DNA of 64,000 nt from Gammaproteobacteria bacterium. Lineage in GTDB: Bacteria > Pseudomonadota > Gammaproteobacteria > Burkholderiales > Thiobacillaceae. Below are positions 11,697 to 47,510 of this stretch, in pieces. The translations under genes were made by a program, and so were the position numbers. Location: assembly GCA_018820765.1 (NCBI GenBank), contig JAHJNN010000001.1, forward strand, positions 62,001 through 126,000, read 5' to 3'. Below the pieces are notes generated by a model that was not told where the DNA came from, did no database searches, and saw only the letters and a program-made list of their open reading frames with translations. Numbering within the stretch: the stretch's first letter is position 1; each line of letters starts with the position of its first letter.

Positions 11697-12712
11697 CCGT
11701 GATGCGACAGCGCGCTCGACAACAGTTTGGCGGTGACGTCGACGATCGGCACCACGCGCTCGTAGGCCATGCGGGTGGGGCCGACCACGCCGAGCGTGCC
11801 GACCACCTGGCCATCGACCGAATAGGGCGCGGTGACCAGACTGCATTCGTCGAGCGGTAAGAGTTCGGATTCGCCGCCGATGAAGATCTGCACGCCGGCG
11901 GCGGTGCGCGACTGGTCGAGCAGCTGCAGGAGCCCGGTTTTCTGCTCGAAGGCGTCGAACAGGCGGCGCAGGTTGCCCATGTTGCTGGAGAGCTCGTGCA
12001 CGTCGAGCAGCTTGCGGCTGCCGGACACCACCATGTGTTCCTGGCTGGCGTCGTGCGCCTGGCTGCCGGCGTCCACCGCGGCGGCCATCAGCCGGGTGAT
12101 GTCGTCGCGCATGCGGCCCAGTTCGTCGCGCAGCTTGCCGCGCACCTGCTCGAAGCTGTGGCCGGCGAAGTTCTGGTTGAAGAAGTTGGCCGCCTCGGTC
12201 AGCGCGGATGCGCTATAGGACTGGTCGGTGAGGATGACGCGGTTTTCGACTTCGCCTTCCATGGTGACGATGATGAGCAGGATGCGCTTGTCCGACAGGC
12301 TGAGGAATTCGATCTGGCGGAAGGCCGGGCTGCGGCGCGGCGTCATCACCAGCCCGGCAAACTGGCTGAGGTCAGACAACAGGGTCGAGGCCGCGGTCAT
12401 CAGCCGTTGCGGGTCGGACGGCGTCAGGCTGGATTCAAGCTGGCTGACTGCGCGCTGGTCCAGCGGGCGCACCGTCAGCAGCGTGTCGACGAAGAAGCGG
12501 TAGCCGCGCGGCGTCGGCACCCGGCCCGCCGAGGTGTGCGGGCTGGCGACGAAGCCCATGTCCTCGAGGTCGGCCATGATGTTGCGGATGCTGGCCGGCG
12601 ACAGGTCGAGGCCGGCGTGCTTCGACAGGGTGCGCGACCCCACAGGCTCGCCCTCGCTGATGTAGCGTTCCACCAGGGTTTTCAGCAGGATGCGGGCGCG
12701 GTCGTTGAGCAT
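11693..12712 (-). CDS. hrcA: Heat-inducible transcription repressor HrcA
   Basis: [53 protein letters not shown]. Confidence 0.96.
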
Positions 12713-12731
12713 AGGGCCATTATAAAGGGCT

Positions 12732-12819
12732 AGGGGCCAGGATTCAGGATTCAGGGAATGAGCGGCCGAAGGCCGCGAATCAAAACCCCCTGATCCCTGA
12801 ATCCTGGCCCCTGACCCCT
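12732..12819. repeat. Inverted-repeat element in hrcA/nadK divergent intergenic region
   Basis: AGGGGCCAGGATTCAGGATTCAGGG ... CCCTGAATCCTGGCCCCTGACCCCT arms. Confidence 0.7.
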
Positions 12820-12834
12820 ATATAATCGCCCCTC

Positions 12835-27958: not shown

Positions 27959-28107
27959 TGTTCGGCGAGGCGCTTCTTCAAGGCCTGCTTTTCGGCCTGG
28001 CGCCGGGCGCCGGGTGTTTTCTCATGCTCGCCGGCCTTGCGTACCAGCGCCAGCGGCACATAGGGATTGCGCGGCTTCGGCACGCGCCGCTTCAGCGGCG
28101 GCTTCAT
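27955..28107 (-). CDS. Small basic hypothetical protein overlapping nth and rnfE
   Basis: MKPPLKRRVPKPRNPYVPLALVRKAGEHEKTPGARRQAEKQALKKRLAEQ, overlapping stop/start with both neighbours. Confidence 0.65.
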   Translation of the reverse strand: MKPPLKRRVPKPRNPYVPLALVRKAGEHEKTPGARRQAEKQALKKRLAEQ

Positions 28108-28781
28108 GCCGGCATCGGCGCGGCGGCGTGGACGCGCCGCTCGGCGCGGGCCTTCTGCCAGTTGTGCGCGGCGATCAACAACCCCAGCGCGATGAAAGCG
28201 CCGGGCGGCAGGATGGCGAGCAGAAAGCCCTGGTAATCGGGCAGCACGTGCAGCACGAATTGCTTCGCCCCTTCGCCGAACACCAGGTCGAGGCCGGACA
28301 GCAGCGTGCCCTGGCCGGCGAGTTCGCGCATGGCACCCAGCACCACCAGCACCAGGGTGAGTCCCAGGCCCATCGCGAAAGCGTCGACCACGCTGTGCAG
28401 CGGACGATTCTTGGAAGCGAAGGCATCGGCGCGCGCGAGCACGATGCAATTGGTCGTGATGAGTGGAATGAAAATCCCCAGCACCAGATACAGCGGATGC
28501 ACGAAGGCGTTCATCAGAAGGTCGATCACCGTGACCAGCGCGGCGATGATGAGCACGAACACCGGGATGCGGATCTCGTGCGGAACGAAATGGCGCACGC
28601 TCGACACCGCCCCGCTGGAGGCCGCCATCACCAGCATGGTCGCCAGTCCCAGCGACAGCGCGTTGACCACGGTGGTGCTGATGGCGAGCAGCGGGCACAG
28701 GCCGAGCAGCTGCACCAGACCGGTGTTCTGTTTCGACAGGCCATTGCTGAAGAGCGTGCGGAACTCCTGCAGGGTCATCAT
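28104..28781 (-). CDS. rnfE: Electron transport complex subunit RnfE
   Basis: NTGLVQLLGLCPLLAISTTVVNALSLGLAT. Confidence 0.95.
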   Translation of the reverse strand: MMTLQEFRTLFSNGLSKQNTGLVQLLGLCPLLAISTTVVNALSLGLATMLVMAASSGAVSSVRHFVPHEIRIPVFVLIIAALVTVIDLLMNAFVHPLYLVLGIFIPLITTNCIVLARADAFASKNRPLHSVVDAFAMGLGLTLVLVVLGAMRELAGQGTLLSGLDLVFGEGAKQFVLHVLPDYQGFLLAILPPGAFIALGLLIAAHNWQKARAERRVHAAAPMPA

Positions 28782-29452
28782 GGGGGCGTCTCCTGGTTGG
28801 ATGCGACGTCGGCCGGGCCGGTCTCGGCCAGCAGCGCGGCGCGGTTGCGGGCGAAATAATCGAGTGCCGCGCCGACCGCCTTGACCACTGCGCGCGGGGT
28901 GATGGTGGCGCCGGCGCGGGCGTCGAAGCGGCCGCCGTCCTTGGCGACCCGCCAATATCTGGGCACCGGATTCATGCGCGACTTGCCGACGAACTGCTCG
29001 ATCCACGGGCTTTTGGCGCGCTCGATGTAATCGCCCAGCCCCGGGGTTTCGCGGTGTGCGGTGACGCGCACCCCGGTCACGCTGCCGTCGACGTCGATGC
29101 CGATCAGCAGGGCGATGTCGCCGCCGTAGCCGTCCGGCGCGATGGCTTCCAGCACCACGGCGGTGATCGATTCGCCGCGCCGTGCGATCCACATCGCCGA
29201 GGGCTGGCGCGTGCCCAGCGACGCGTCCGGCGGCACGCTCTGCTGGCTGGCGAGCAGGTCGTTGTCATACAGCGCGGGCGGCAGCACCTGGTTCAGCAGC
29301 GCCCGCTTTTCGGCCTGCCGGCTACGCTCGATGGTGGGCTCCGTGCGGGCGAAGGTGAAGCTCAGCAGCGCGGTGGCGACCAGCGCGAAGGCGAACAGGA
29401 TCACCCCGGTGCGCAGGGCATTGCGGCCGGCGGCCTTGAGCAGGCTGATCAC
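28778..29452 (-). CDS. rnfG: Electron transport complex subunit RnfG (GTG start)
   Basis: ISLLKAAGRNALRTGVILFAF; AHRETPGLGDYIE; DARAGATITPRAVV. Confidence 0.94.
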   Translation of the reverse strand: MISLLKAAGRNALRTGVILFAFALVATALLSFTFARTEPTIERSRQAEKRALLNQVLPPALYDNDLLASQQSVPPDASLGTRQPSAMWIARRGESITAVVLEAIAPDGYGGDIALLIGIDVDGSVTGVRVTAHRETPGLGDYIERAKSPWIEQFVGKSRMNPVPRYWRVAKDGGRFDARAGATITPRAVVKAVGAALDYFARNRAALLAETGPADVASNQETPP

Positions 29453-30486
29453 GCCGGCGGCTCCTTGCCGCGGCGGGGAGCGACCCCGTAGACGCGCGGC
29501 TGGGTCCAGGCGTCGATCAGCGGCACGGCAAGGTTCATCAGCAGGATCGCGAAGGCCACCCCGTCCGGGTAGCCGCCCCAGGTGCGGATGACGATGGTGA
29601 GCAGGCCGGCGCCGAAGCCGAAGATCAGCTTGCCGCGCGGCGTGGTGGCGCCCGACACCGGGTCGGTGGCGATGAAGAAGGCGCCCAGCATCACCGACGG
29701 CGCGAACAGGTGGAACCAGGGCGCGCCGAAGCGGCCGGCGTCGAAGAAATGCAGGAAGCCGGCGGCCAGCCAGATGCCGGCGAGGAAGGCCAGCGGCACC
29801 TGCCAGCTGATGATGCGCAGCGCCCACAGTGCAAGGCCGCCGAGCAGGAAGGCGCCCGCCAGCCATTCGAAGCCGATGCCGCCATAGTGGCCGAAGATCG
29901 GCTGCGTCATGATCTCGTCCACCGTGTACTGCTGCAGCAGTCCGGTTCGCAGCGCATCCAGCGGGGTGGCCATGGTCACCGCGTCGAGCATGGCCTTCGG
30001 CAGGTCGCCGCCGAAAATCACGCTCGCGCTTTGCGCCAGCGTGAGCGGGGTGGCGGTGAGCGAGAGCGGGCCCGCCCACTGCGTCATCTGCACCGGGAAG
30101 GACACGATCAGCACCGCGTAGCCGACCATCGCCGGGTTGAAAATGTTCTGCCCCAGTCCGCCGTACAGATGCTTGGCCACCACGATGGCGAACAGCGTGC
30201 CGGTGACGATCAGCCACCACGGCGCCAGCGTGGGCAGCGACAGCGCCAGCAGCCAGGCGGTGACGATGGCGGAGAGATCGGTGAGGAAGGGTTTCGCCGG
30301 ATAGCCGCGCGCCTTCAGCATCGCTGCTTCGGCCGCCAGCGCGGTGGCGGTGGCGAGCGACAGCGTGATCAGGATGCCCGGACCGAACAGCCAGACGCTC
30401 GCCGCGATGCCGGGGAGCAGCGCGGCCAGCACCCAGGCCATGACCTGGGTGACGCTGCTGCGATCAAGAACAAAAGGAGCGGGCAT
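29449..30486 (-). CDS. rnfD: Electron transport complex subunit RnfD
   Basis: Membrane protein; GLGQNIFNPAMVGYAVLIVSFP; ATDPVSGATTPRGKLIFGFGAGLLT. Confidence 0.95.
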   Translation of the reverse strand: MPAPFVLDRSSVTQVMAWVLAALLPGIAASVWLFGPGILITLSLATATALAAEAAMLKARGYPAKPFLTDLSAIVTAWLLALSLPTLAPWWLIVTGTLFAIVVAKHLYGGLGQNIFNPAMVGYAVLIVSFPVQMTQWAGPLSLTATPLTLAQSASVIFGGDLPKAMLDAVTMATPLDALRTGLLQQYTVDEIMTQPIFGHYGGIGFEWLAGAFLLGGLALWALRIISWQVPLAFLAGIWLAAGFLHFFDAGRFGAPWFHLFAPSVMLGAFFIATDPVSGATTPRGKLIFGFGAGLLTIVIRTWGGYPDGVAFAILLMNLAVPLIDAWTQPRVYGVAPRRGKEPPA

Positions 30487-32150
30487 CAGGGATTCTCTTC
30501 GGGTTCCAGCGGCTGGCGCGCCAGTGCGCGGATTTTAGCCCGGCGTGCCTCGATTTCCTCGATCTCGTGCTGCTTGTCGGGCGGCAGGTGGTCGACGTTC
30601 TTCGGTTCGACCCCGGCCTTTTTCGCCTGCGCGCGCGCCAGCGCGGCGGCGATCAGCGCCTTCTTGGCGTCGGCGTCGGGGGCGCCCGAAGCCGAGGGAT
30701 CGGCGGCGAGTTCGGCGCGCTTGGCCTGCGCCTTGGCAGCGAGCTTCTCGGCCTTTTCCTTTTTCTCGCGCTCCAGCCGGAACTGGCGGAACTCGTGGCG
30801 CTCGCGCGCCAGGTCGGATGCGCGCTTCTCTTTCTCGCGTGCCCAGATTTCGCTCTTGGCATAGCGATAGAAATCGACCAGCGGAATGTGGCTGGGGCAG
30901 ACGTAGCTGCAGCAGCCGCATTCGATGCAGTCGAACAGGCTGTATTCCTGCGCGCGGCCGAAGTCGCCCGCCTTGGCGAAGCGGAACAGTTCCTGCGGCT
31001 GCAGCACGGCGGGACAGGCGTCGGCGCAGCGGGTGCAGCGGATGCACGGCAGCGCCTTCGGCAGCGGCGGAAACAGTTCGTTCGACTGCACCAGGATGCA
31101 GTTGGTGGCCTTGACCACCGGCACCTCCGGATCGGGCATCGGCATGCCCATCATCGGCCCACCCATCAGTACGCCGGTGGTGCCCTCGCGGTCGCCCGCG
31201 AGGGTGATCAGCGCGTGCATCGGGGTGCCGATCAGCACCTCGACATTCTGCGGGCGCAGCACGTGGCCGGTGACGGTGACCAGGCGCGAGATCAGCGGTT
31301 CGCCATGGTGCACCGCGCGCGCCAGCGCATGGGCGGTGCCGACGTTGAACACCTGGATGCCGATGTCGGTGGACAGCTTGCCGGACGGAACCTGCTTGCC
31401 GGTGAGTGTCTCGATCAGCTGCTTGGCGCCGCCGCCGGGGTAGATCGCAGGAACCGCGACCACCTCCACCGCGAAATCCAGCTTCGCGGCAGCGGAGCGC
31501 ATTGAATCCAGCGCCTCGGGCTTGTTGTCCTCGATGCCGACCAGGATTTCCGTGCTGCCCAATAAATGCCGCATCACCGCCACGCCCTGCAGGATGTCGT
31601 CGGCGTGGGTGCGCATCAGCACGTCGTCGCAGGTGATCCACGGCTCGCATTCGCCGCCGTTGACGATCAGCGTGGGGCAGGGGTGGGTCGCGCCGGGGTC
31701 GAGCTTGACCGCGCTGGGAAACACCGCGCCGCCGAGGCCGGCCAGGCCCAGGTCGCGCAGCCGCAGGCGCAGGTCGGCCGGCGTCATCGTGCGGTAGTCG
31801 AGCGGGGCGTGGGCGATCCATTCGTCGCGGCCGTCGGTTTCGATCGTGATGCATTCGTCCGGCAGGCCCGAGGCGTGCGGCACGACGGCGGGGCCGATTG
31901 CGCTGACGACGCCGGAACTCGACGCATGCACGGCGGCGGAGATATAGCCGTCCGCGGCGCCGATCAGCTGGCCTTTCAGCACCCGCTCGCCCACCTCGAC
32001 CACCGGCTTGGCCGGGGTGCCGATGTGCTGGCGCAGCGGGATGACGAGCTTTTTCGGCAGCGGCGCGGCGTGAACCGGGCGCGTGTTCGATTCGGCCTTG
32101 TGCCCGGGCGGATGCACCCCACCCTTGAAGCTGAAGAGTGTGCGGCTCAT
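30486..32150 (-). CDS. rnfC: Electron transport complex subunit RnfC
   Basis: [35 protein letters not shown]; two CxxCxxCxxxCP ferredoxin motifs. Confidence 0.96.
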
Positions 32151-32698
32151 GACACTTTTTTCAGCATCACCACCGGAGCCTTCCATTTCCAGTGCGGCAG
32201 ATCCTCGGCGATCGGCACCATGGTGATGCAGTCGACCGGGCAGGGCGGCAGGCACAGTTCGCAGCCGGTGCATTCGGCGGCGATGATGGTGTGCATCTGC
32301 TTGGCGGCGCCGGAGATGGCGTCGACCGGGCAGGCCTGGATGCACAGGGTGCAGCCGATGCAGGTGTTCTCGTCGATGAAGGCCACCGACTTCGGCTTCG
32401 GCGTGCCGTGGGATTCGTCGAGCGCTTTGGGTTCGACGCCCAGGAGTTCGGCCAGCTTCTTCACCCCCTCCTCGCCGCCCGGCGGACACTGGTTGATGTC
32501 GGCCTCGCCCCGGGCGATCGCCTCGGCATAGGGCCGGCAGCCGGGAAAGCCGCACTGGCCGCACTGCGTCTGCGGCAGGATGGCGTCGATCTTTTCCGCC
32601 AGCGGATTGCCTTCCACCTTGAAGCGGATCGCCGACCAGCCGAGCACCAGGCCGATCACGACCGCGATGGCGACCATCACCCAGATCGCGGTCAGCAT
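32147..32698 (-). CDS. rnfB: Electron transport complex subunit RnfB
   Basis: [51 protein letters not shown]. Confidence 0.97.
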
Positions 32699-32939
32699 GA
32701 TCCTGGAAACCTCGGTTGGGCGTGCCCGATGACGTGTTCGGGCGTGTGGATGGCGCGAAGCGACAACGCGGCAGGCTGATGCCTGCAAGGCGGAGCGACA
32801 AAGCCAGACGCATGTCCGAACGCGTCAGCGGGTGCGTAGCGGTGCTTGACTGGGCGAGAACAACAATCGAAAGCACAGGCGCTTGTCTTCGTGCGGGCTT
32901 TCTTGATCATGATCGAGCGGTCAACCGGGGTTTGCAGGA

Positions 32940-33515
32940 TCACTTGACCAGCCCGGAGAAGCCCATGAAGGCGAGCGACATCAGGCCGGCGGTGATCATT
33001 GCGATGCTGGTGCCCTTGAACGGCGACGGCACGTCACAGGTATCGAGGCGTTCGCGGATGCCGGCAAACAGGATCAGCACCAGGGTGAATCCGAGCGCCC
33101 CGCCGGCGCCGAAAAACAGCGACTCGACGAAGTTGTGCTGCGCCTGCACGTTGAGCAGCGGAATCCCCAGCACCGCGCAGTTGGTGGTGATGAGCGGCAG
33201 ATAGATGCCCAGCACCTGGTACAGCACCGGGCTGGTCTTGTGGATGAACATCTCGGTGAACTGCACGATGCCCGCGATCACCACGATGAAGGACAGCGTG
33301 CGCAGATAGAACAGCTCGGTGCCGAGCAGGTATTCGTTGATGAGATAGCTCGCGCCGGACGCCAGCGTCAGCACGAAGGTCGTCGCCAGACCCATGCTGA
33401 TCGATGTTTCCAGTCTTTTCGACACGCCCATGAAGGGGCACAGGCCAAGTATCTTGGCCATCACGATGTTGTTCACGAACACCGTGGAAATGAGGATGAG
33501 GATGTAGGTTTCCAA
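32940..33515 (-). CDS. rnfA: Electron transport complex subunit RnfA
   Basis: [53 protein letters not shown]. Confidence 0.96.
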
Positions 33516-33661: not shown

Positions 33662-36600
33662 CTTCAAATCCGAGCCTCGTCGTGAGGCCGGGCGATGCCC
33701 GCATGTTCGGCTGGTCTCGTGCCATCGTCTACGTTTCAATCCGTGCCCGGCCGTGAGGCCGGGCGATGCTATCGGTAGCAAGCGCGGAAGATTTCACCGA
33801 TTTGCGTTTCAATCCGCGCCCGGCCGTGAGGCCGGGCGATGCGTGAGCCGGGGCGCACAGACCATGACTGAGAAAACGTTTCAATCCGCGCCCGGCCGTG
33901 AGGCCGGGCGATGCGACGGGCGAGGACGAGGAAAGCCGCCATAACCCGGTTTCAATCCGCGCCCGGCCGTGAGGCCGGGCGATGCGCAGCACGTCGTCCG
34001 CCTCGGCGCGGCGGTCGGTGTTTCAATCCGCGCCCGGCCGTGAGGCCGGGCGATGCCTGTCGTAACTGTAACTCAGGACAGGGCTCATCAGTTTCAATCC
34101 GCGCCCGGCCGTGAGGCCGGGCGATGCCGTAGGCCGTGATTGCCGGGGATGGGGTGAGGCTGTTTCAATCCGCGCCCGGCCGTGAGGCCGGGCGATGCGC
34201 ACTCGGACTGAGCCGAGGCGCGGCATCACAGTGGTTTCAATCCGCGCCCGGCCGTGAGGCCGGGCGATGCCCGATGCGGGTGTCGCACAGCCGACAGGGC
34301 TTGGAGTTTCAATCCGCGCCCGGCCGTGAGGCCGGGCGATGCCAGATGCCGGTGTCGCGCAGCCGACCGGACTGGGGGTTTCAATCCGCGCCCGGCCGTG
34401 AGGCCGGGCGATGCTCCAGCGTGCCGATGTAGAGCGGGCTGTGCACCATGTTTCAATCCGCGCCCGGCCGTGAGGCCGGGCGATGCCTGGCGAGGCGGTG
34501 GCGGCGGTTCATGTACCAGGGTTTCAATCCGCGCCCGGCCGTGAGGCCGGGCGATGCCTGCCGATGGCGATCTTGGTGGTGCTGGCCACCGGCTTGTTTC
34601 AATCCGCGCCCGGCCGTGAGGCCGGGCGATGCGCACCGCCTTGCTGGAGATGTGCGCGAGAACATAGAGTTTCAATCCGCGCCCGGCCGTGAGGCCGGGC
34701 GATGCAAGGAGAGCAGTGATGCCATTGGCCGCAGGCATGGGTTTCAATCCGCGCCCGGCCGTGAGGCCGGGCGATGCTGATGCCATAACCGCAACAATTA
34801 CCCCGGCAGATGTTTCAATCCGCGCCCGGCCGTGAGGCCGGGCGATGCGAGCAGCTGGCGCTCTACATCAAGGGGATCGTATGTTTCAATCCGCGCCCGG
34901 CCGTGAGGCCGGGCGATGCGCCTTCCGTCTTGCGGTGGGGTCAGGCGGACGTGGTTTCAATCCGCGCCCGGCCGTGAGGCCGGGCGATGCCTGCGTACTG
35001 TTGGGCGAGCTGCGGTAGTACGGTTGTTTCAATCCGCGCCCGGCCGTGAGGCCGGGCGATGCAAGGAGAGCAGTGATGCCATTGGCCGCAGGCATGGGTT
35101 TCAATCCGCGCCCGGCCGTGAGGCCGGGCGATGCTCATGGCAAAACGTTGCCGCTTCTCGGGCCATTGGTTTCAATCCGCGCCCGGCCGTGAGGCCGGGC
35201 GATGCATGCAGGCGCACGAGTCGGCCACGAACCGGGCGATGTTTCAATCCGCGCCCGGCCGTGAGGCCGGGCGATGCACGACTTCGAAGCCGCCGCCACC
35301 CCGGTTGGCGTGTTTCAATCCGCGCCCGGCCGTGAGGCCGGGCGATGCGCCAGCCGGACAGGTAGCCGGCCATCGCCACCGGGTTTCAATCCGCGCCCGG
35401 CCGTGAGGCCGGGCGATGCGCCGGGTCGCCGGCGTGCCAGATCCTGATCGCGGCGTTTCAATCCGCGCCCGGCCGTGAGGCCGGGCGATGCGTCTGGAAT
35501 GTCCTGCTGAGTAGCTGAAATATTAGGTTTCAATCCGCGCCCGGCCGTGAGGCCGGGCGATGCGCGGCGGCAAGGTTTGCGCTGGAAGGCGTAGCGAGGT
35601 TTCAATCCGCGCCCGGCCGTGAGGCCGGGCGATGCATGCCGCTCCCCTATGAAAACAGCACCAGCGGCGAGTTTCAATCCGCGCCCGGCCGTGAGGCCGG
35701 GCGATGCTGATGATGTCGCCCGAGCGCAGCGTCACGCCTGAGTTTCAATCCGCGCCCGGCCGTGAGGCCGGGCGATGCGATGCAGAAGGCGTTTGACCCA
35801 GCGAATCTGACGAAGTTTCAATCCGCGCCCGGCCGTGAGGCCGGGCGATGCCTCCTGACCTGGGACGCGAGCGCGGCAGCGATGAAGTTTCAATCCGCGC
35901 CCGGCCGTGAGGCCGGGCGATGCACTTCAAGGGTGCCTCCATTATCGGCGACACGATGTTTCAATCCGCGCCCGGCCGTGAGGCCGGGCGATGCGCACGA
36001 AATCGGCCCAGGAAAGATTCATCCGGGCGTTTCAATCCGCGCCCGGCCGTGAGGCCGGGCGATGCGGCAGCAGCCGCACGACGATAGTGGCGCTCATCAG
36101 TTTCAATCCGCGCCCGGCCGTGAGGCCGGGCGATGCGCAGGCCCGCCTTGGCGATGGTGTCGCGGAAGTCGTTTCAATCCGCGCCCGGCCGTGAGGCCGG
36201 GCGATGCCGGCATCGAGCACGCTGGACACGATGGTGTCGGCGTTTCAATCCGCGCCCGGCCGTGAGGCCGGGCGATGCTGGCGTTGTGTATGGGACCAGT
36301 CTCGGGCAAAACGTTTCAATCCGCGCCCGGCCGTGAGGCCGGGCGATGCCCTGGCGCGTTGTGCTAAAGTGCGCGCCGTGTGACGTTTCAATCCGCGCCC
36401 GGCCGTGAGGCCGGGCGATGCGCCGCCGCCAGCCCGCCGGCAGACAGCGCCAGCTTGTTTCAATCCGCGCCCGGCCGTGAGGCCGGGCGATGCCAAGCCG
36501 ACGCCATGGCGCGCCAGCAGGCCGAGAGTGTTTCAATCCGCGCCCGGCCGTGAGGCCGGGCGATGCGCGTTCTGTTTTCCTGGCCGCAGGCGGCCAAATC

Positions 36601-37285
36601 GTTTCAATCCGCGCCCGGCCGTGAGGCCGGGCGATGCGCAGATCGGGCGGCACTGCCCCCTCGCCCGGCATGTTTCAATCCGCGCCCGGCCGTGAGGCCG
36701 GGCGATGCGATGGGTACCACCGCCCGCCGAAGCCGAAGCTGAGGTTTCAATCCGCGCCCGGCCGTGAGGCCGGGCGATGCCTGGTCGATCAGGACATTGG
36801 AAACGGTGAGCGTCGCGTTTCAATCCGCGCCCGGCCGTGAGGCCGGGCGATGCATCCGCTTTCCGGTGAAGGCGTCGGCGAATTCGCGGTTTCAATCCGC
36901 GCCCGGCCGTGAGGCCGGGCGATGCCTGATTAAAGCCCATCCAGATGAATCTATACTTGACGTTTCAATCCGCGCCCGGCCGTGAGGCCGGGCGATGCTG
37001 CCTGAACGGCGCCCCGCACAACTACGAGCGGACGTTTCAATCCGCGCCCGGCCGTGAGGCCGGGCGATGCGCACGGGCATGTCAGGCGTGAACGTGGTGT
37101 CGCACGCGTTTCAATCCGCGCCCGGCCGTGAGGCCGGGCGATGCATCCCTGAGCCGTTTGTCTGGGGCTTTTACGATGGTTTCAATCCGCGCCCGGCCGT
37201 GAGGCCGGGCGATGCGCAATCATGCTCGCGTATTCGTACATGATTGAGGTTTCAATCCGCGCCCGGCCGTGAGGCCGGGCGATGC
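33662..37285 (-). CRISPR. Type I-C CRISPR array, 51 repeat units (one degenerate) and 50 spacers
   Basis: 37-bp repeat, crRNA-sense strand GCATCGCCCGGCCTCACGGCCGGGCGCGGATTGAAAC, counted by eye at about 71-72-bp period; spacers about 33-38 bp; ends in GAAAC; next to I-C cas genes. Confidence 0.98.
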
Positions 37286-37463: not shown

Positions 37464-37754
37464 TCATATGAGAAGCGGGCCATCGAAATCCACTGAGCGG
37501 AAGCAGCCGTGTTGTCTGACGCGAAGATCGACAGGTTCGGTGATGCGGTAAAAGCGCAGGTTGTCATGGTTTGCATCGATCTCGGCGAGTAAGTCGCGTT
37601 CGAGTTGTTCGAACTGCATTTCGTTGACGGTGCATTCGAAGACGGATTTTTGCACGCGTTGGCCGACGCGTTCGCAGGCCTTTGCGACACGGCGTAGGCG
37701 TTTGCGTCCGGCGGCGGTCTCGGTGGAGACGTCATAGGTGACGATGATGAGCAT
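37464..37754 (-). CDS. cas2: CRISPR-associated endonuclease Cas2 (type I-C)
   Basis: [43 protein letters not shown]. Confidence 0.97.
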
Positions 37755-37757
37755 GGC

Positions 37758-38792
37758 TTATTTGGCCAGATAGGGCAGGTAGCCTTCCATTTCGCCGCGC
37801 AGGGTGCGCGCCATGAATCGTGCCTGAACGAAAGGCAGCAGGGCAAGAGGGAGTTTGGTTTCGGTGAGCGGGTGGGTGAGTTCTTCCTGCTTGCGTTCCT
37901 GCCAGGAGGTGACGACGGCACGGCGGCCACGGTCGTTCAGCATGACAGCGCCGCCCTCTCGCAGATCAAAGTCGCCGGGGCCGACTTGACCCCGGTTGAT
38001 GAGGGTGAGCGCCAGGCGGTCGCACAGTACGGCGCGGAATTCTTCCTGGAGGTCGAGCGCAAGCGCTGCACGGCCGGGACGAACGGCGTGCAGAAAGCCG
38101 AGTTGCGGATCAAGCCCGGCGGCTTCCAGCGCGGAACGGCAGTCATTCATGAGCATGGCGTAGAGGAAGGAAATTAGTGCATTGAAGCGGTCGAGCGGCG
38201 GTCGGCGGGTGCGGCCGTCGAGTTTGAAATGCGCGCGCATGGCGGGTTTGACGATGAGATTGACGGCTGCAAAGTAGCCGCGCGCGGCTTCGCCTTCGAC
38301 GCCGCGTAGTTCATCCAGCGTGGCAGTGACGGTTACTGCGCGCAGCGAGGCGGCAAGGTTGTCGGCGGCGCGTGTGAGCCGGGCCGCCTCTTGTTCGTCG
38401 GTCGCTTCGCGCGCGCCGCGCTGCAATACGCTGCGGCTGTTTTTGAGCTTGCCGGCGACCACGGCGCGGGCCAGCTCCAACGTGAAGGCTGGGTTGCCCG
38501 CTTGCTTATGCTGAGCCTGGCGCAGCAGGATGTTGCCGGAAACCGGACCTTCGAGCCGTGCCTTGAAACGGCCGCTGTCGTCCAGCAGAACCAGAGATTT
38601 ACCCTCGTCGGCCAGGCGGTGCATGAGCGCAGGCGAGACCATGACGTTGCCGAAACAGACCAGTCCGCCGACATGGTGCAGCGGCACCTGGAGTTTTTTC
38701 TCGCGCTCGACATCGATGCGCACGGTGGCGTTTTCCAGGTGGGCATACGCCTGCGGGGTCATGACGTAGAGGGTGTTTTGGATGGTGTGCAA
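37758..38792 (-). CDS. cas1: CRISPR-associated endonuclease Cas1 (type I-C)
   Basis: MHTIQNTLYVMTPQAYAHLENATVRID...PLHHVGGLVCFGNVMVSPALMHRLADEGKSLVLLDDSGRF; ALISFLYAMLMNDCRSALEAAGLDPQLGFLH. Confidence 0.97.
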   Translation of the reverse strand: MHTIQNTLYVMTPQAYAHLENATVRIDVEREKKLQVPLHHVGGLVCFGNVMVSPALMHRLADEGKSLVLLDDSGRFKARLEGPVSGNILLRQAQHKQAGNPAFTLELARAVVAGKLKNSRSVLQRGAREATDEQEAARLTRAADNLAASLRAVTVTATLDELRGVEGEAARGYFAAVNLIVKPAMRAHFKLDGRTRRPPLDRFNALISFLYAMLMNDCRSALEAAGLDPQLGFLHAVRPGRAALALDLQEEFRAVLCDRLALTLINRGQVGPGDFDLREGGAVMLNDRGRRAVVTSWQERKQEELTHPLTETKLPLALLPFVQARFMARTLRGEMEGYLPYLAK

Positions 38793-38793
38793 T

Positions 38794-39414
38794 TCATGCC
38801 TCCGGGTCGAACAGATCGTGTTTTTGTTGTCGCTGCCTGGTTTGGTCGGCGACGGCTTCAGGCTGGCAAATCTCTTTCAAGGAACATTCCCTGCATCGTG
38901 AATCGTTGACCGGTGGCGGTAGCGTGCCCGAGACAAGCATCGCGCGGATCGCATTTGCAGTGTCGATCACCCGTGCCTTCAGCTCCGGCGTGATGACGAC
39001 CTCGCGCCGCCGGTGGCTGCTGGCATGAAAGATCGCGCCCTTGGTCACCGGCCGGCCGAGCATGTCTTCCAGACACATGGCCTGCGCCGCGAGCTGCAGG
39101 TCGTCGTGCAGCTTTTGCCGCTTGGCGCCATGCTTGAACTCCACCGGGAACACCGTGCCGTCAGGATGAAACTCAACCAGGTCGGCCTTGCCGATGAGGT
39201 TGAGACGGTCGCTCCACAAAGGCAGCGCGCGTTCCACCCGCACGCCGGACTTAATCTCGTAGCCAGGCGTGTCAACCAGGTGGTGCACCGCCTGCCCACG
39301 CGCCGTGTGAATGTTGTCGGCAAATGCCTGCTCCAGATGAATCAGCCCGCACTGGCGTGGGCAATAGGCCCAGTGCTGGAGCGCGGAAAGGGGAATCGGG
39401 TCTGTTTCGGCCAT
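38794..39414 (-). CDS. cas4: CRISPR-associated exonuclease Cas4
   Basis: IPLSALQHWAYCPRQCGLIHLEQAF; KADLVEFHPDGTVFPVEFKHG; C-terminal CRECSLKEIC cysteines. Confidence 0.96.
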   Translation of the reverse strand: MAETDPIPLSALQHWAYCPRQCGLIHLEQAFADNIHTARGQAVHHLVDTPGYEIKSGVRVERALPLWSDRLNLIGKADLVEFHPDGTVFPVEFKHGAKRQKLHDDLQLAAQAMCLEDMLGRPVTKGAIFHASSHRRREVVITPELKARVIDTANAIRAMLVSGTLPPPVNDSRCRECSLKEICQPEAVADQTRQRQQKHDLFDPEA

Positions 39415-39461
39415 GATGCGAGTGCTACCATTCCAACAGGACGTTATTTCTGGAGCGCGTC

Positions 39462-39713
39462 ATGGCAGCGTTATTGAAAGAGATTGAAAACCAGGCCTTG
39501 CAGCTTTCGCCGCAAGAGCGCGGCAAACTCATCCACCGCCTGATCGTTAGCTTGGAAGGGCCGACGGAAGACACCCCCGAAGCCATCGCCCAGGCCTGGG
39601 ACGAAGAAATCGCCCGGCGCGTGGCGGAAATCGATGCCGGTACTGCGGTGTTGATTCCACATGAGCAAGTCATGGCGGAAATCGATGAAATGCTGAGAAA
39701 GTCCGGTAATTGA
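39462..39713 (+). CDS. Antitoxin-like protein, addiction-module component family (TIGR02574-like)
   Basis: MAALLKEIENQALQLSPQERGKLIHRLIVSLEG...AQAWDEEIARRVAEIDAGTAVLIPHEQVMAEIDEMLRK; stop overlaps start of toxin. Confidence 0.85.
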   Translation: MAALLKEIENQALQLSPQERGKLIHRLIVSLEGPTEDTPEAIAQAWDEEIARRVAEIDAGTAVLIPHEQVMAEIDEMLRKSGN

Positions 39714-40003
39714 GGCTCGCTTGGCAAAGCCAGGCCAAGGTCGAATTTGCAGAGGCGCTGAAGTATTACCGCGACCAGGCCGGGCTCGACATTGCACGGG
39801 ATTTCAACCACGCCGCCATGCAAGCCGCGCAGCGCCTGCTCGAATATCCCGAGATGGGCGTCAAATCGGTCCATGGAGCAAGGCGGTTTGTTATGCACGA
39901 TTACCCTTACACCTTGATCTACCGCGTGATGCCCGAGACGATCATCATCGTCGCCGTCGCGCACCACAGCCGCCGTCCGGGGTACTGGGCGGGGCGGCGG
40001 TAG
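39710..40003 (+). CDS. RelE/ParE-superfamily toxin-like protein (TTG start)
   Basis: MRLAWQSQAKVEFAEALKYYRDQAGLDIARDFNHAAMQAAQRLLEYPEMG...RRFVMHDYPYTLIYRVMPETIIIVAVAHHSRRPGYW. Confidence 0.88.
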   Translation: MRLAWQSQAKVEFAEALKYYRDQAGLDIARDFNHAAMQAAQRLLEYPEMGVKSVHGARRFVMHDYPYTLIYRVMPETIIIVAVAHHSRRPGYWAGRR

Positions 40004-40013
40004 CGAAAGATTT

Positions 40014-40901
40014 CTAGAATCCCTCGATTTCCTCGGGCTTCAACCCATCCAAGTTAGCGAGTTCATAACTGCCATCGGCTTTCACGGTCAGAGTGCGGTG
40101 TACCTTGGCAGAAGAATGTTGTCCTGCTTTACAGTTGTGCCGCCACCAAACGACTTTTAGAACTTCCATGCTGCCCGCAGGTCGGGCTGCGGCGTCGTCG
40201 TTTTCGAACAGTCTGGGTAATGCCAGTTTGATTGCCTCGGCATCCGCATCAGTGAAGCCGGTTTTTTCGGCCAGTTGGGGATTCATGCTGCCGTAGAACC
40301 TGTAAATGCCCTGATCGACACGATGCTTCATACCCATGGTGTCGCTGCCGCGTTTGGTGCCATCGCCTTCGCCACTCACGCTTTTGGTGATTTGCAGGCT
40401 GGAAATATCGATGGGCTCGACGCTAAAAGCCGATTGGACGGTGACAGGTCCACGTATACCGATGGAAACCCCAGTGTCGCCTTCTTCATCGTTACCGTCT
40501 TCTTTTTTCTTGCCAGCTTTCTTGTTGCTTTTCAGGGCGAAGAGCTGCCCGAAAGCGCGTACGTCCAGCCATTTCTTGCACGCCAGTTCGGCGGTCTTTT
40601 CTGAGCCCAATTCTTTACCCAAACCAGCTTCTGCCCGAGCGCGAAGGCTTCTCGCGTCGTCAGCCCTGCGGTCGTCGGACTGGACGAAGATCATGTTGCC
40701 GTCGTTTTCTTTCTTACCGTCGTTGATCCAGCGTTCCAGCAGCCGATCCCGGATTTTTCGCTTGATCGACACATCGCTCATTTCCCCGAAGTTCGAATAA
40801 TCGGTACGCGGACGGTTGCCGTTCAGCGGGTCGCCGTTCGGGTTGGCATTCTTGACGCGGAGGATGACAGCGAAATCAATTTTGTTTTGCAGAGTGCTCA
40901 T
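40014..40901 (-). CDS. cas7c: Cas7 (Csd2), type I-C Cascade backbone
   Basis: NKIDFAVILRVKNANPNGDPLNGNRPRTDYSNFGEMSDVSIKRKIRDRL; Shine-Dalgarno GAGGAA upstream of ATG at 40901. Confidence 0.96.
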   Translation of the reverse strand: MSTLQNKIDFAVILRVKNANPNGDPLNGNRPRTDYSNFGEMSDVSIKRKIRDRLLERWINDGKKENDGNMIFVQSDDRRADDARSLRARAEAGLGKELGSEKTAELACKKWLDVRAFGQLFALKSNKKAGKKKEDGNDEEGDTGVSIGIRGPVTVQSAFSVEPIDISSLQITKSVSGEGDGTKRGSDTMGMKHRVDQGIYRFYGSMNPQLAEKTGFTDADAEAIKLALPRLFENDDAAARPAGSMEVLKVVWWRHNCKAGQHSSAKVHRTLTVKADGSYELANLDGLKPEEIEGF

Positions 40902-40919
40902 GTGCATTTCCTCGGTTGG

Positions 40920-42764
40920 TTATTCGGCAATGGGGTCTTCAGTAGGTGCGGTTTTGTCTGTCTTGGGCGGATTCAGAATCTGCCGTTGGCAGTGGTAGCC
41001 GAGCAGAAATTCGCCGGAAAGCTTGCTGTCGTCCAGGAAGTCTTCTCCCTGAAAACTAGAAATGACCTCGTCATGCAGCTTTTCCATGTCATACAAAGAG
41101 CCGGGGCGTTTGGCGCGCAGGCGTGACTTAGATGGCGTGAGGGCAAGTTCGATGGTGCGCCAGGTGCTCGCTGGTCGGTCGGCAAAGCGTTGCATCAGCT
41201 TCGCGGCGGTGGTGTCGCGTTTTTCGCCCGCCACGTACAGGGCACGACTTTCGATATGCTCGGCAATCGCAAGCAGGCGGCCATAGAGGTAGTCCCGGCT
41301 GGTCCGGTCGGTTTCCAACGACATTTGATACTCCTTGTTTTTAAAAGCGCCTTTGAATAGGGCGCAGGCGATACCCAGGGTTTTTTCCCATTCCCAATGA
41401 TCGAGGCCGGCCCGATTGCTGGCCCTGCGTACAGTCGATTCGACAAGGTCACGTGGCAGCCGCTGTCCATCGACGATGCACGGCAGGAGCCGCTCAACCG
41501 TGGATTTTTTAAGCTTGTCGTCCAAGCGACGGCCAAACGCCGCTTCGGCGATGTCACGTGGCGCCGGTGCCCCGACGAATTTCAGTTCCTTACCGAAGTT
41601 CTGCGGCCAGGCCTGCGCCTTGTGCCAGGTTTCGACCCGCTCAAGAAACTCGGACCCGGTCAGCTCGCGGTAATACGTGATGGCCATTCGCCCCGGCGTT
41701 GCTGAGTCCAGGCCCATGACGACGATGTCATCTGTCGGCCCCAGCTTGTTGCGGTAGCCAGCCATGACGAGGCTCAAGCGCTTGGCAAAGGATTGACCGA
41801 CATCGCTATCAAGGGATAGCTCCGGCGCTATGGGCTGCTCTTCGGTGGCTCCGCCAGCAAGCATCAAGGTCATCGAGTTGCCGAATGGATCGGGAATCGG
41901 CGTGCCTGCGACAGCCCAACTCACGATGACCTGATCGTCGTTTCGGTAGGCTTGGCGCTGGATTAGCCAGCGCAGGGCATTGTGGGCCTTCTGCGTGACT
42001 TCGTAGCCTACGCCGCACGCCTGCTGGCCAGTGTCGTCGGTGAAGCGACCTCTGAAGGTATAACCGGAGCTATCGTTGGCGCTGATGAGCTTGGCACCGT
42101 CACCGGAGTGACGGATGAATTTTGGATGGTTTTTACAAAGACGCGCTTCCTCGCCAAGAACCATGCATATCCCGTTCTTGGGGTTTTGAATCTGGTCGTA
42201 GGCTATCCATGCGTCGATCAGATTCGTGTCCTCCCAAGTACCTGATGCAGGATCATCCGGCGATTCAACTCGCCAACGAATAAAAACCTTTGAATCTTTG
42301 ATTTTTTCTTTTCCGCGAGCACCTTCGAAAACCATGGGGATCATTTTTTCGCTGAGAAGATCTGCCCAAAGATTCCCGTGCGTTAAATAAGTTAGTACTG
42401 CTTTGGCTTTCGGGTGTTGTTGTGCCGATTCACACCATTTCTCCAAATTGGCAATGTAAGCCGTATATTTTTTCTCATCTTTTTCCGGGAAGTCTCGGGC
42501 GCAGTAACTGATTTCCTCGCAAAGTGGGTGCGGAGCGATTTTGCTTCCTGATCTTCCGACCGATGCTTCTGTTACAGGGATTAGTGTTGCTGACTCTGTG
42601 GCGCCTAATTTCCTGACACGTCTGAAATTACCGGATGAGTCGATGGCGACCTCAACGTGTGCTCTCTTTGAATAGTGAGCCAAAGGCCAAGGTGGGTTTT
42701 CATTCCGATTCGGCAATCGAACTGTCTGCTCATAAGTTTCATACAGCTTTTGTATCCAGCTCAT
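40920..42764 (-). CDS. cas8c: Cas8c (Csd1), type I-C large subunit
   Basis: MSWIQKLYETYEQTVRL...; position between cas5c and cas7; Csd1-like NDSSGYTFRGRF, ALRWLIQRQ. Confidence 0.94.
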   Translation of the reverse strand: MSWIQKLYETYEQTVRLPNRNENPPWPLAHYSKRAHVEVAIDSSGNFRRVRKLGATESATLIPVTEASVGRSGSKIAPHPLCEEISYCARDFPEKDEKKYTAYIANLEKWCESAQQHPKAKAVLTYLTHGNLWADLLSEKMIPMVFEGARGKEKIKDSKVFIRWRVESPDDPASGTWEDTNLIDAWIAYDQIQNPKNGICMVLGEEARLCKNHPKFIRHSGDGAKLISANDSSGYTFRGRFTDDTGQQACGVGYEVTQKAHNALRWLIQRQAYRNDDQVIVSWAVAGTPIPDPFGNSMTLMLAGGATEEQPIAPELSLDSDVGQSFAKRLSLVMAGYRNKLGPTDDIVVMGLDSATPGRMAITYYRELTGSEFLERVETWHKAQAWPQNFGKELKFVGAPAPRDIAEAAFGRRLDDKLKKSTVERLLPCIVDGQRLPRDLVESTVRRASNRAGLDHWEWEKTLGIACALFKGAFKNKEYQMSLETDRTSRDYLYGRLLAIAEHIESRALYVAGEKRDTTAAKLMQRFADRPASTWRTIELALTPSKSRLRAKRPGSLYDMEKLHDEVISSFQGEDFLDDSKLSGEFLLGYHCQRQILNPPKTDKTAPTEDPIAE

Positions 42765-42765
42765 T

Positions 42766-43479
42766 TCAAACCCCCAGATCAGTGGCCTCATGCGCGACAT
42801 CGCGCAGCTTTCCCTTGCAGAATTTCTTGGGCGTCATCGCTCGGACGAATTTGCGGATCGTGCAGTCCTCAGGTCGTGAGAATTGAATGCGGCCATTAAC
42901 CATGATCGGCTTCCAGAGTCGGGCGTGCAGATTGTTCGCGCCGGTTTCATCGGGATAGTCGAAGCCGTGGAACATCAGGCCGTAGGCCAACTCTCCCGCG
43001 TCGTCGTAATGTCCAGTTTCAGAGCCGTATGTGCAGGGTTCGACGTAACCCTGACAGTCTCGTGTTCCCAGAAAAACATCCTGCCGCCCGCCCAATTCCA
43101 GCATTCGCTTGGCGATTGCGTAATGCTTGCCTTCCACACGGTCCTCTTCGAGTTCGGGGCGTTGCATGTTCCATTCAAAATGCGCGCGTACCTGGTATTC
43201 GACATCGGACAAAAAGGTGTAGATGGCCAGGGTATTTCCACCGCCGAATTCCAAGGGTTTGGTGCCCTTGGTCTGCGTGCGGATCGGTTTCATCACCCTG
43301 ACCTCGTCGATCACCCAGATGAAAGTGGGCTTCCAGTAGATGGACTTGGCGATGCCCTTCAAGGCTTCATATGTCGGGACGTGGTACGAGCACTTTTCGC
43401 CGCCGATCCGGGTCAGCGGATCGGTGAACAGGGCGTGGCGCGCACTGGCTTTGAATTCGATACTGTTGCGGTTAGCCAC
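42766..43479 (-). CDS. cas5c: Cas5c (Cas5d), pre-crRNA processing subunit (GTG start overlapping cas3 stop)
   Basis: [63 protein letters not shown]. Confidence 0.95.
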
Positions 43480-46003
43480 AGAGAACCTCCATTTTTCCTT
43501 CCGGGGTTTCGGACAGGCCGAATTCCGGGCTGTAGTAGCGTGAATCGGCCAGGTAGAGAACACCCGTGCCCTCTTGAACTTCCCGCACGATAAGGGCTTT
43601 GGATAGTTTTTCCAGTACGTTCGGGAATACGTTGACACTGAATTGCTGTGCACGGCGCAGCAATTCGAATTCCTTGTCTGGCAGGTAGGCCGCGCATAAA
43701 TCGTTGATGAGCTGTTTGCCCTCGTCAACGTAAGGAACGATGACGCCGCGCGTGGGTGCGTCGATCGCTTTGAATGCTTTGGCAGCGGTCATGAAAGCTT
43801 GCCGAAGATAGATTGCCGGAGCTTGGCGTTTCGTTCTTTTGTAGTCTTCCAGCGCAAACGTGTTGCTTGATAGCAGGTTGAGCAGGGTGTCGTCATGGCC
43901 GACCGAGACGGGATAGCCCATTTCGTTTGCCCGAGCGAAGAAATAGTTTTCGTAGTACCACACCATTGCCTGAGGGCCGATGCGGTTGTTGCCGTATTTC
44001 TCGGGGTCGGCATCAAAGTCGTCCAGCACGCGCTCAGCCTTTTCTCGGCCAACCAGAATAGCGGGCAATTTACCCAGATTCTCATCCTCGGGGCGCGGGT
44101 TGAGTACATGCACCAAACCCTGCTTGGCGCGGCCATTGCGATTGCAACGTCCCGCCGCCTGGGCGATGGAATCCAGACCCGCAATAAAGCGGATGACTGC
44201 GCCGAAATCGACATCAACGCCAGCTTCAATCAATTGCGTGCTGATGCACAGCGTCGGGGCAGACGGGACTTGATCCAGCCGCGTGCGCACTTCATTCAAA
44301 ATCGCTTTCCGATGCGCCGGACACATGTTCGTGCTTAGGTGGAAAACCTTGGTAGTACTGTTTTCTCCACTCATCTTTTGGCACAGTCGGTAAATGGCCT
44401 GCGCCGCCTTTTTCGTGTTGACGATGACCAGACAGCTACCAGACGCCTCGACTTGCTCAAACGCCAGCACTGCGATTTCGTCCTGCGACCAGCCACCGGG
44501 TTTTCGGCGGTTGACGACTTCGACGCGCTTCAGATCGTCAAAGAGTTTCTTCACATCTGGCATGAGTTCGTTTCCTGCCGATACGCGAATTGCGCCTTTG
44601 TACGCATCGACTTGATCGAGCAGTGGTTGAGTGGCGGTACATAGAACAACAGTGCTGCCGCAGAAGTCGGCCAGGTAGTTCATGGCGTTGTTGAACAGGT
44701 GAACGCAGTTGACCGGCAGGCTCTGGATTTCGTCGAAAATCAACACTGCATTGGCGAGCTGATGCATTCGCCGCGCCCCGCGCGTGCCTGCGCCGAACAG
44801 GGTTTCCAGTAATTGCACGGAGGTGGTGTATACGACTGGCGCATCCCAGTTTTCCGAGAGGATTTTGCCGCGCCAGCTTTGCGCCTCCGGGGTGAGGTTG
44901 GAATGGTGTTCGAGTACCACGCTGCCCGCTTCAACGCCTTCTGGTTCCAGGATGCGTCGCACGACTTCGGCGTTCTGGTCGATGATGGACGTGAACGGAA
45001 TGACATAGATCACTCTGTCCATTGTGTGCTTGCGGGCGTGGTGCAACGCAAACCGCAGGCTTGCGAGTGTCTTGCCGCCACCGGTTGGCACGGTCAGGGT
45101 GTAAATGCCTTTCTCCCGTGCTGCGGCTTCCAGACAATGGCGTGAAATATCTTGTCGCAAAGCGTCGATGGGATGGCGTGACGTGAAAGCGCCGAGGTGC
45201 GCTTCCAGGCGCGCTATCAACACATCCCAAGATTCGTAATTGCCGCGTAGCCGCCGCCGCGCTCGTCCGGGGTGTTCAAAATCCGCTGTGTCGATGCGGT
45301 CGGCGTCGATCAAGCAACTGTAGAGCGAGCGAACAAGTAGGCCGAGTTGCTGCTGGAATACTGGGCTCTGCGGGTTCTTCCCAGGGACTTTGCCAAGAAT
45401 ATTTGCGATCCAGACCTGAAACGCCTGCGTGGTTTCAGGGCGAGTCATCAGGCCGCGAGCGGTTGCAAGGAGTTTTTTATCTGCCTTTCCAAGCACCTCG
45501 CTGAGGTGAGTCTTTTCGCCGAGCTTGTTCATCCGCTTGGTGAACAAGTCTTCTGCGGGTTTTCCGGCCGATAGCGCAAGACAGTCGATCAAACCGGAAT
45601 GGTGCGAGGCGATGCACAAAGCCAGTACCTGCCCGGCGATTCGTGCCAGATCGTTCTGTTGCGCCAGTTCCTGCCAAATCCACTGCGCCCCGCTGGTGGA
45701 GTGATCGATTTTGCCTTTTAGGCCAGCCGCATCGACAAACTCTTCATCCTCGTCCTGATTAAGCAAGCCCGTGGCCGATTGGATGTATGCCTGAAACGCC
45801 GCGCTGTACTTGCCCAAGTCGTGGAGCAAGCCGAGAAGTTCGCCGTGCGTGGCGAGGCTAAATTTCTCGGCCAGCTCAGAGCTGAGTATGGCGACCTTGG
45901 AAAGATGATCTTCTAGAGATTGGATTTTGCCGTCTGGACGAACGTGAGCGACAAACGCGGGTTTGTCGATTGACTTGAGCGAAGCGTCGAAAGGCGAATC
46001 CAT
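43472..46003 (-). CDS. cas3: Cas3 HD nuclease-helicase
   Basis: N-terminal HD ([19 protein letters not shown]); [56 protein letters not shown]. Confidence 0.97.
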
Positions 46004-46036: not shown

Positions 46037-47044
46037 CTACTCGCCCCCAGGCTCAGAACCTGAGCACGGCGTTTCCCCACGTTGATACTGGCCTGCCGCC
46101 ATTTCAAGCAAGTTCTTCGCAGCCTCGCGCAATTTTGGCGGGCCTGTAACTTCGACGTCCGCCCCATATTTGAGGATGTCCATAAGCAGTTCACGGTCAT
46201 CGGAATAGGGCAGGCGCAATTCGTAGCGGCCGTCTTCGAGCCAGCGGCTTTGCTGTTCGGGGTGCCAGATTTCTTCGGCGACCCAGCGGGCGCGTTTGGC
46301 GGTGAATCGGAGCACGGCGGTGGCGTGGGGCTGGCCGGCGAAGATGCCGTAGCTGCTGGCGAGTTCGCGATTCAAGGTGGATTCAGCGACGGTTTTGGTG
46401 GGCTTGGCCAGCGGTTCGACGGCGCGTATGCATTCGACGGCGAAGATGCGCAGGCCTTTTTTGTCATGGCACCAGGCGTCGAGGTACCAGTTGTCGCGGT
46501 AGTGGGCGAGACGTTGCGGGGAGATTTCGCGGCGGCTGGTTTGGTCGCGCTCGCGGTTGTAGTAGTCGATGCGGAGCCGGTGGCGTTGCAGGACGGCATG
46601 GGCGACGGCCTGGAAGTGGCGCGGGTTCTTGTGGCGGGAGGCGATGCTCAGGAGCCGGATGCGCTGGGCGGCTTCGCCCACGCCGAGGTGCTGGCTGGCC
46701 AGGAGTGTGTCGATGCGGGCTTCCAGGGGGCGCAGGTGGTCGTCGAGCAGGCCAGGCTCCAGGTTGGCGAGCAGGTGTTTCAGGGTGACGAGGGCAAGCA
46801 GTTCCGCGGGGCTGAACCACAGGCCCGGTAAGGAGTGGCGGCCGTCGGCGGTGTCGTAGCGATAACCGCCCCGTTCAAGGTCGCAGACGATGGGTGCGCC
46901 GAGTTTGTCGCGCAGGTCGGCGATGAGCCGGGTGAGGGTGGAACGCGAAAAGCCGTGCTCAGCGATGAGCGCGGCGCGGGGGAGCCCGGTGCGCCGTCCA
47001 TCCAGCAGGCGGTGCAGGCGATAGATTTCGTCGAGTTTGCTCAA
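46037..47044 (-). CDS. Helix-turn-helix/WYL-domain transcriptional regulator
   Basis: LDEIYRLHRLLDGRRTGLPRAALIAEHGFSRSTLTRLIADLRD; QRHRLRIDYYNRERDQTSRREISPQRLAHYRDNWYLDAWCHDKKGLRIFAVECI. Confidence 0.92.
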   Translation of the reverse strand: MSKLDEIYRLHRLLDGRRTGLPRAALIAEHGFSRSTLTRLIADLRDKLGAPIVCDLERGGYRYDTADGRHSLPGLWFSPAELLALVTLKHLLANLEPGLLDDHLRPLEARIDTLLASQHLGVGEAAQRIRLLSIASRHKNPRHFQAVAHAVLQRHRLRIDYYNRERDQTSRREISPQRLAHYRDNWYLDAWCHDKKGLRIFAVECIRAVEPLAKPTKTVAESTLNRELASSYGIFAGQPHATAVLRFTAKRARWVAEEIWHPEQQSRWLEDGRYELRLPYSDDRELLMDILKYGADVEVTGPPKLREAAKNLLEMAAGQYQRGETPCSGSEPGGE

Positions 47045-47210: not shown

Positions 47211-47510
47211 TCAGAAGAAATCGTCTTCTCGCTGGTGGCGCACCGCCAATATCGTAACGGTTTCGGCGTCTTCGATTTCGAACAGTGCGACATACCCGGA
47301 CTGGCCAAATTCGATCACCATTTCGCGCAAGAAGGGATGATCGGGCGAAGCCTTGCGGCAGGCAAATGGAAAAGTCTCCAAAAATCCAAAGGCCTTTTCA
47401 ATCGCCACGCGCGCGCGTTCGGCCGACTCCAGGTCACGCTCTGCCAAATTATCGAACAGGCGCTGTAAATCGTCGGCGGTGCGGGCTGCAAGGCGCAGCC
47501 GGAAGCTCAT
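47211..47510 (-). CDS. RelE/ParE-superfamily toxin-like protein
   Basis: MSFRLRLAARTADDLQRLFDNLAERDLESAERARVAIEKAFGFLETFPFACRKAS...GYVALFEIEDAETVTILAVRHQREDDFF. Confidence 0.88.
   Translation of the reverse strand: MSFRLRLAARTADDLQRLFDNLAERDLESAERARVAIEKAFGFLETFPFACRKASPDHPFLREMVIEFGQSGYVALFEIEDAETVTILAVRHQREDDFF

Follow-up and report, generated by a model that had tools for sequence, protein, structure and literature searches.

How a protein toxin-antitoxin (TA) pair comes to lie antisense within a type I-C cas operon, and what it could be doing there, is the question raised by the window considered here, that is the whole stretch of 64,000 nucleotides analysed from contig JAHJNN010000001.1 of a member of the Thiobacillaceae. 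The antitoxin gene (39462..39713, plus strand; 83 aa, ATG start) matches PF09720 (E 5.6e-13, 49.2 bits vs. a Pfam cut-off of 23.3) as well as TIGR02574, and the toxin gene (39710..40003, plus strand; 97 aa), whose TTG start overlaps the antitoxin TGA, matches the PF05016 ParE_toxin family (E 2.3e-11, 44.6 bits vs. a cut-off of 23) and, below threshold, TIGR02385 (RelE/StbE). Both ORFs are intact, and such an overlapping bicistronic operon is the layout met in type II TA systems combining PF09720 with a toxin of the ParE/RelE superfamily; judged by its domains and gene order, the pair has the look of a functional type II TA module. Regarding the mode of action, PDB profile matches of the toxin (8c26, 3kxe and 8c24) are to proteins named ParE or plasmid stabilisation toxins, and a ParE-like action, i.e. 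gyrase inhibition, is likely, with an RNase action as the alternative; PF05016 also includes mRNases (PMC11980606). A search of a plasmid collection with the toxin gave weak matches only. For the antitoxin, the search for a solved relative, a significant fold match or a recognisable DNA-binding fold gave none, the predicted model consisting of four helices (pLDDT 86 but pTM 0.40), and its candidature as a DNA-binding regulator of cas4 was rejected on that account. Since the whole genome holds nine PF05016 matches, such toxins are common there and it is the location that wants explaining.

The pair is bordered by cas7 (Csd2, a divergent type I-C variant; 40014..40907), with 10 bp to its stop, and by cas4 (38794..39414), with 47 bp to its start. 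Together with cas8c (Csd1; 40920..42800), cas5c (42766..43728 as called, the Cas5 domain beginning at about residue 95), cas3 (43472..46003), cas1 (37758..38792) and cas2 (37464..37754), all on the minus strand, these genes make up a type I-C set that is complete by profile matches, and NCBIfam names the flanks of the TA as Csd2 (Cas7), Cas4, Csd1 and Cas5c. The earlier note on this DNA, which had described a protein TA antisense inside a type I-C operon, is thus borne out by the Pfam domains, the ORF coordinates (exact for both genes in an ORF check) and the flanking Cas families. The CRISPR array (33733..37285) comprises 50 repeats of 37 nt each and 49 spacers, 48 of them different, one of which resembles another site of the window (32384, minus strand) at 25/35 bases only. 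Just past the distal end of the array lies an Rnf-like electron-transport cluster (28000-33515, minus strand). At the opposite end, a WYL-domain regulator (46037-47044, minus strand) stands directly upstream of cas3, as does a similar gene in locus L120 (12318-13400), and beyond it comes a second ParE-family toxin (47211-47510, minus strand; PF05016, E 1.5e-13), preceded by an antitoxin that is likely of RHH type (frame ending at about 47507, minus strand; no Pfam match).

By analogy with CreTA, the earlier note had also proposed that the pair might make it toxic to lose or silence the cas locus, or might couple adaptation with interference. A guard of this kind, in which the Cas complex would repress the toxin, has the location within a type I cas operon in its favour, and that alone. 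No CRISPR-repeat-like (CreA-like) element was found in or near the TA, the best match reaching 19/37 in the TA region and 21/37 in the wider region vs. 20-23/37 in shuffles of the latter, and no array spacer matches the TA; the toxin is, besides, a conserved protein gene already paired with its own protein antitoxin. Because a protein TA that is complete in itself has no means of sensing cas silencing, the analogy is unsupported; neither silencing nor loss of cas3-cas7 would free the toxin, only a deletion including the TA itself, and we regard repression by the Cas complex as barely conceivable.

The other suggestion made at the time, as a null expectation, was a passive insertion. Related genomes were searched with the toxin, cas7, the antitoxin and cas4, and within the genus a TA stands directly upstream of cas4 in 20/20 of the cas4 loci found: in 18 of them this same pair lies antisense between cas4 and an effector gene, and in the remaining two (G035 and G034:C229) the place is taken by HicBA, in sense direction. 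A one-off or strain-specific insertion is rejected by these loci; the TA recurs at the cas4 site across genus, order and class, and the association is non-random. With few exceptions, namely the orphans L130 and L174, the degenerate G003 and the remnant L173, antitoxin relatives at least 58% identical stand divergent to cas4, and relatives of about 50% identity or less are mostly found elsewhere than at cas4.

As to which neighbour the TA follows, a count by cas4 lineage, made once near-identical loci had been removed, gave a TA in 60/76 loci with Cas4 at least 55% identical vs. 4/52 of the others. Since this count mixes search seeds, it was repeated with cas4 as the sole seed, in surveys that also score a few loci where the pair is incomplete (only the antitoxin or only HicB): TAs were present in 29/37 loci with closer Cas4 vs. 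0/9 with more distant Cas4 in the order, and in 6/10 vs. 2/22 in the class. Pooled without the own genome, the figures are 34/46 (Cas4 at least about 55% identical) vs. 2/31 (more distant), with a p-value (1.7e-9) to be taken as indicative, given that the 55% line was chosen with the data in view and that the loci share descent. A TA is missing from roughly a quarter of the cas4 lineage. Between the window and L120, Cas4 and the antitoxin are each 95% identical and the toxin 90%, vs. 33% for Cas7, and three effector types occur under the same cas4-TA block, namely the canonical I-C of L120, the divergent I-C of the window and the L168 set, which is rearranged, highly diverged and I-C-like, with cas3 adjoining the TA. 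Assignment of L132, L167 and L168 to type I-B was considered and rejected, the L168 effectors scoring best, below cut-off, on I-C models and their order being rearranged. While the spacing to cas4 hardly changes, that between TA and effector is variable, with gaps of about 440 to 1447 bp. A link to Cascade or Cas7 is rejected, as Cas7 differs under a fixed cas4-TA; on these comparisons, the TA goes with cas4-cas1-cas2 and not with the effector.

The place itself is less constant in content than in position. In a sample of loci retrieved through similarity to cas7, a gap of more than 250 bp separates cas7 from cas4 in 32/72 cases and cas4 from cas1 in 6/69. Once near-identical loci are removed, 64/74 inserts at the site hold a TA, from HicBA, VapBC, ParDE, HI1420-type HigBA, DUF433/DUF5615 or PF09720-ParE in either direction, to which RelB-YafQ adds a single locus where the effector was not found. 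Some loci are layered, with HicBA still standing beside a PF09720 pair in L016 and HicB still present in L170. On a Cas4 tree of 85 proteins, the minimum number of changes, inflated by weakly supported branches, is at least 30 for the TA family label vs. 12 for presence or absence, which indicates that the slot stays filled while its occupants change; starred branches of the tree require that PF09720, and likewise HicBA, was gained or lost independently several times. Taken together, these data show a slot occupied in most loci of the cas4 lineage of the window, the occupant of which has often been replaced by an unrelated TA family.

This could still be the mark of a passenger, if the boundary between effector and adaptation genes simply tolerated inserts and TAs, abundant and hard to lose, piled up there without helping CRISPR. 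The absence of any insert above 250 bp at cas8-cas7 (0/78 in the same cas7-based sample) or at cas1-cas2 (never split in 140 loci), the non-TA inserts seen at the site (Bro-N, RhuM, Fic, NucS and a transposase) and the persistence of TAs after cas loss all agree with it, and recombination at this boundary would help cassettes to spread. It accounts poorly for the share of TAs among the inserts, as TA genes are a small part of any genome, for the same TA panel finding a TA in 0/80 loci over the 1.2 kb upstream of cas3, and for the combination of high occupancy, repeated replacement by unrelated families and attachment to one cas4 lineage, so that a mere passenger seems rather unlikely. Of note, the RhuM (L245, L248, L250 and L252), Bro-N (L048, L055, L082 and L102) and KilA-N-like (L244) inserts at the effector-cas4 junction are mostly from loci with more distant Cas4.

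Antisense TAs (MazF/PemK with RHH, and PIN with Phd) are also found between cas4 and cas1 (L132 8456-9132, L169 4735-5444, L184 11964-12622, L168 4375-5104, L053 and L058), in some loci on top of the TA upstream of cas4. In L210, a reverse-transcriptase-like ORF (494 aa, recognised by eye) occupies that interval (11350-12831).

The 47-bp divergent intergenic region between cas4 and the antitoxin (39415..39461) gives some hints about control. Comparison of loci uncovered a motif, TGCTAnnAT, which shows no variation across 19 aligned loci and occurs in 27/34. It lies 30-34 bp before the antitoxin ATG, at some 9-18 bp from where cas4 starts, and is followed by GGAG; in the window it reads TGCTACCAT (39423..39431, plus strand) and the GGAG, a conserved ribosome-binding site of the antitoxin, lies at 39452..39455 (plus strand). 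Extended -10 elements are a feature of sigma-70 promoters, and the motif fits such an element in a putative TA promoter. That element came from the comparison of loci and not from the sigma-70 consensus scan, which found no promoter there and none separately for cas4. As the motif is still present in the orphan L130, it belongs to the TA. Nearly all antisense pairs begin 47-62 bp away from cas4, L126 being closer at 41 bp, and for relatives carrying the antitoxin clade of the window the spacing is nearly always 47-51 bp. In loci with a sense-oriented TA, the stop codon of HicA touches the start of cas4 or overlaps with it (TGATG in L192 and L195); in the divergent 47-bp design as in the HicA-cas4 arrangement, the layout couples the TA tightly to the adaptation genes. 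Such abutment also fits a regulatory role, and a coupling of adaptation with interference through the TA is possible.

Two readings build on this layout. In the first, antisense cas transcription would lower the antitoxin and free the toxin, strong cas induction thereby leading to dormancy. The antisense arrangement with its 47-bp and 10-bp margins would suit it, and the lack of a separately detected cas4 promoter makes read-through from cas7 plausible. At the site, 33/71 TA records are antisense, of which 32 are PF09720, and the other families are almost all sense; as antisense orientation is therefore not essential, interference by transcription is very improbable. In the second reading, the TA would share control with cas4-cas1-cas2, through an overlapping divergent promoter in the window and through a common operon with overlapping HicA-cas4 genes elsewhere, and release of the toxin would slow growth as spacers are acquired. 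The tie to adaptation genes instead of the effector, the closeness of the putative promoter element to the cas4 start, the TGATG overlap and the TAs between cas4 and cas1 all speak for dormancy coupled to adaptation, which agrees with the favouring of spacer acquisition by slow growth, as stated in a passage of PMC10269591, and with a 2012 proposal (PMC3506569). Weighing on the other side are the four-helix antitoxin model, in which no DNA-binding fold was recognised and which has no solved relative, and the lack of a sigma-70-like cas4 promoter in the scan; moreover, no regulatory design is conserved, the orientation and the layout of promoters changing from one TA family to another. Coupled dormancy of this sort is somewhat unlikely in our view. 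The wider statement, that one cas4 lineage keeps a dedicated, interchangeable TA slot and that the TA in it links growth arrest with spacer acquisition, being functional in adaptation and not only in addiction, is considered unlikely.

The history of the pair itself bears on whether a Cas partner is involved. The window and L128 share 90-95% identity over a stretch that runs from the 5' part of cas4 across the promoter and takes in the first 100 bp of the antitoxin, vs. about 50% across the C-terminal half of the antitoxin and most of the toxin, before conservation resumes at the 3' end of the toxin (SRRPGYWAGRR). Throughout the cas4-linked clade, the N-terminal two thirds of the antitoxin are conserved and the C-terminus is swapped along with the toxin, a pattern by which toxin and antitoxin C-terminus are evidently exchanged as one cassette. 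Pairwise distances of the toxin correlate with those of the antitoxin C-terminus (r 0.74, vs. 0.77 between Cas4 and Cas1), and hardly with those of Cas4 (r 0.19), Cas1 (0.15) or Cas7 (0.02); co-evolution of the toxin with Cas proteins thus finds no support, and no specific Cas partner is implied. In several pairs, the dS of the TA is below that of cas4 (0.12 for the toxin vs. 0.62 for cas4 between the window and L120), as recent exchange would give. Where estimable, with only numerically sound estimates retained for such short genes, dN/dS is below 1 for both TA genes, denoting purifying selection.

The reading we favour, tentatively and as close to an even call, is that the TA slot anchors the adaptation module by addiction. 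The TA would occupy a slot at the effector-side edge of the mobile module cas4-cas1-cas2 and would be retained since the cell is addicted to the DNA around cas4, a role for which any TA family, in either orientation, may suffice. A recombination or deletion taking the TA together with adaptation genes would leave a longer-lived toxin with no fresh antitoxin and be punished; with the TA at the joint where effectors are swapped, exchanges cutting into cas4-cas1-cas2 would become costly. The TA would then be a guard in cis against DNA loss and not a sensor of Cas expression. Addiction in cis would explain why any TA and any orientation works, why occupancy is kept despite changes of identity and why no Cas partner co-evolves. 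Several loci speak against it. The orphan L130 (6876-7422 and upstream) has kept the TA, with about the first 10 cas4 codons on the promoter side, and is evidently the relic of a lost cas locus, and in L173 TA remnants lie beside a decayed cas4; cas genes lost with the TA left behind mean that any protection is leaky. Besides, premature stops break the toxin next to an intact antitoxin in L163 (6288-6581) and L121 (11275-11568), the antitoxin is intact with no toxin found in L176, and there is the quarter of the lineage lacking a TA. No toxin-only case of the PF09720-ParE family was seen among the loci examined. In L040 (3576-4340), Cas4 apparently lacks 54 residues at its N-terminus, on the side abutting the TA. 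The pattern of the slot is much more certain than its function.

What looked like a single odd insertion becomes a general pattern, in which unrelated TA families are repeatedly found at the same place beside cas4, and this repeated filling suggests that having a TA there is useful. If the TA stabilises the module, the survival of adaptation genes through frequent effector exchange would be explained; if it slows growth during infection, the 2012 dormancy proposal becomes directly testable with genes already in place. As the flanking genes remain constant while the TA changes, these loci amount to a natural experiment on the purpose of TAs.

In the open-licence literature, no description of protein TAs fixed beside cas4 was found, and the slot appears undescribed, CRISPR-linked TAs in general having already been noted. 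A passage of the FLSHclust survey (2023) reports numerous TA modules associated with CRISPR systems that could safeguard cas genes (PMC10910872); unlike what that passage describes, the present case has a fixed site, a linkage to cas4 and a turnover of families. A 2025 review of TA-CRISPR coupling treats, in the parts concerned, CreTA, CreR, Cas2 and Cas13 and not a cas4-side slot (PMC12737573). CreTA (type VIII, CRISPR-regulated toxin-antitoxin RNA; PMC10097628, PMC9458426) likewise places a toxin module in a type I cas locus, where it could penalise locus loss, but the window pair is made up of two proteins and lacks any CreA-like RNA or repeat; it is not under repression by Cascade, and its linkage is to cas4 instead of Cascade. 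The coupling of immunity and suicide proposed by Makarova et al. (2012), in which dormancy buys time for adaptation, was put forward for Cas2 and similarly predicts dormancy genes beside immunity genes (PMC3506569); spacer acquisition is raised by slow growth according to a passage citing Dimitriu 2022 (PMC10269591). In the in situ effector exchange already described (PMC6452270), the adaptation genes also stay while effectors are shuffled, the difference being that loci of the window type have a TA at the joint, which stays with the adaptation genes. Lastly, the pair shares gene order, overlap, families and compact operon with other PF09720-ParE type II TA modules, from which its clade (antitoxin at least about 58% identical) differs in being almost always divergent from cas4 and in exchanging its toxin cassettes while the N-terminus of the antitoxin stays fixed.
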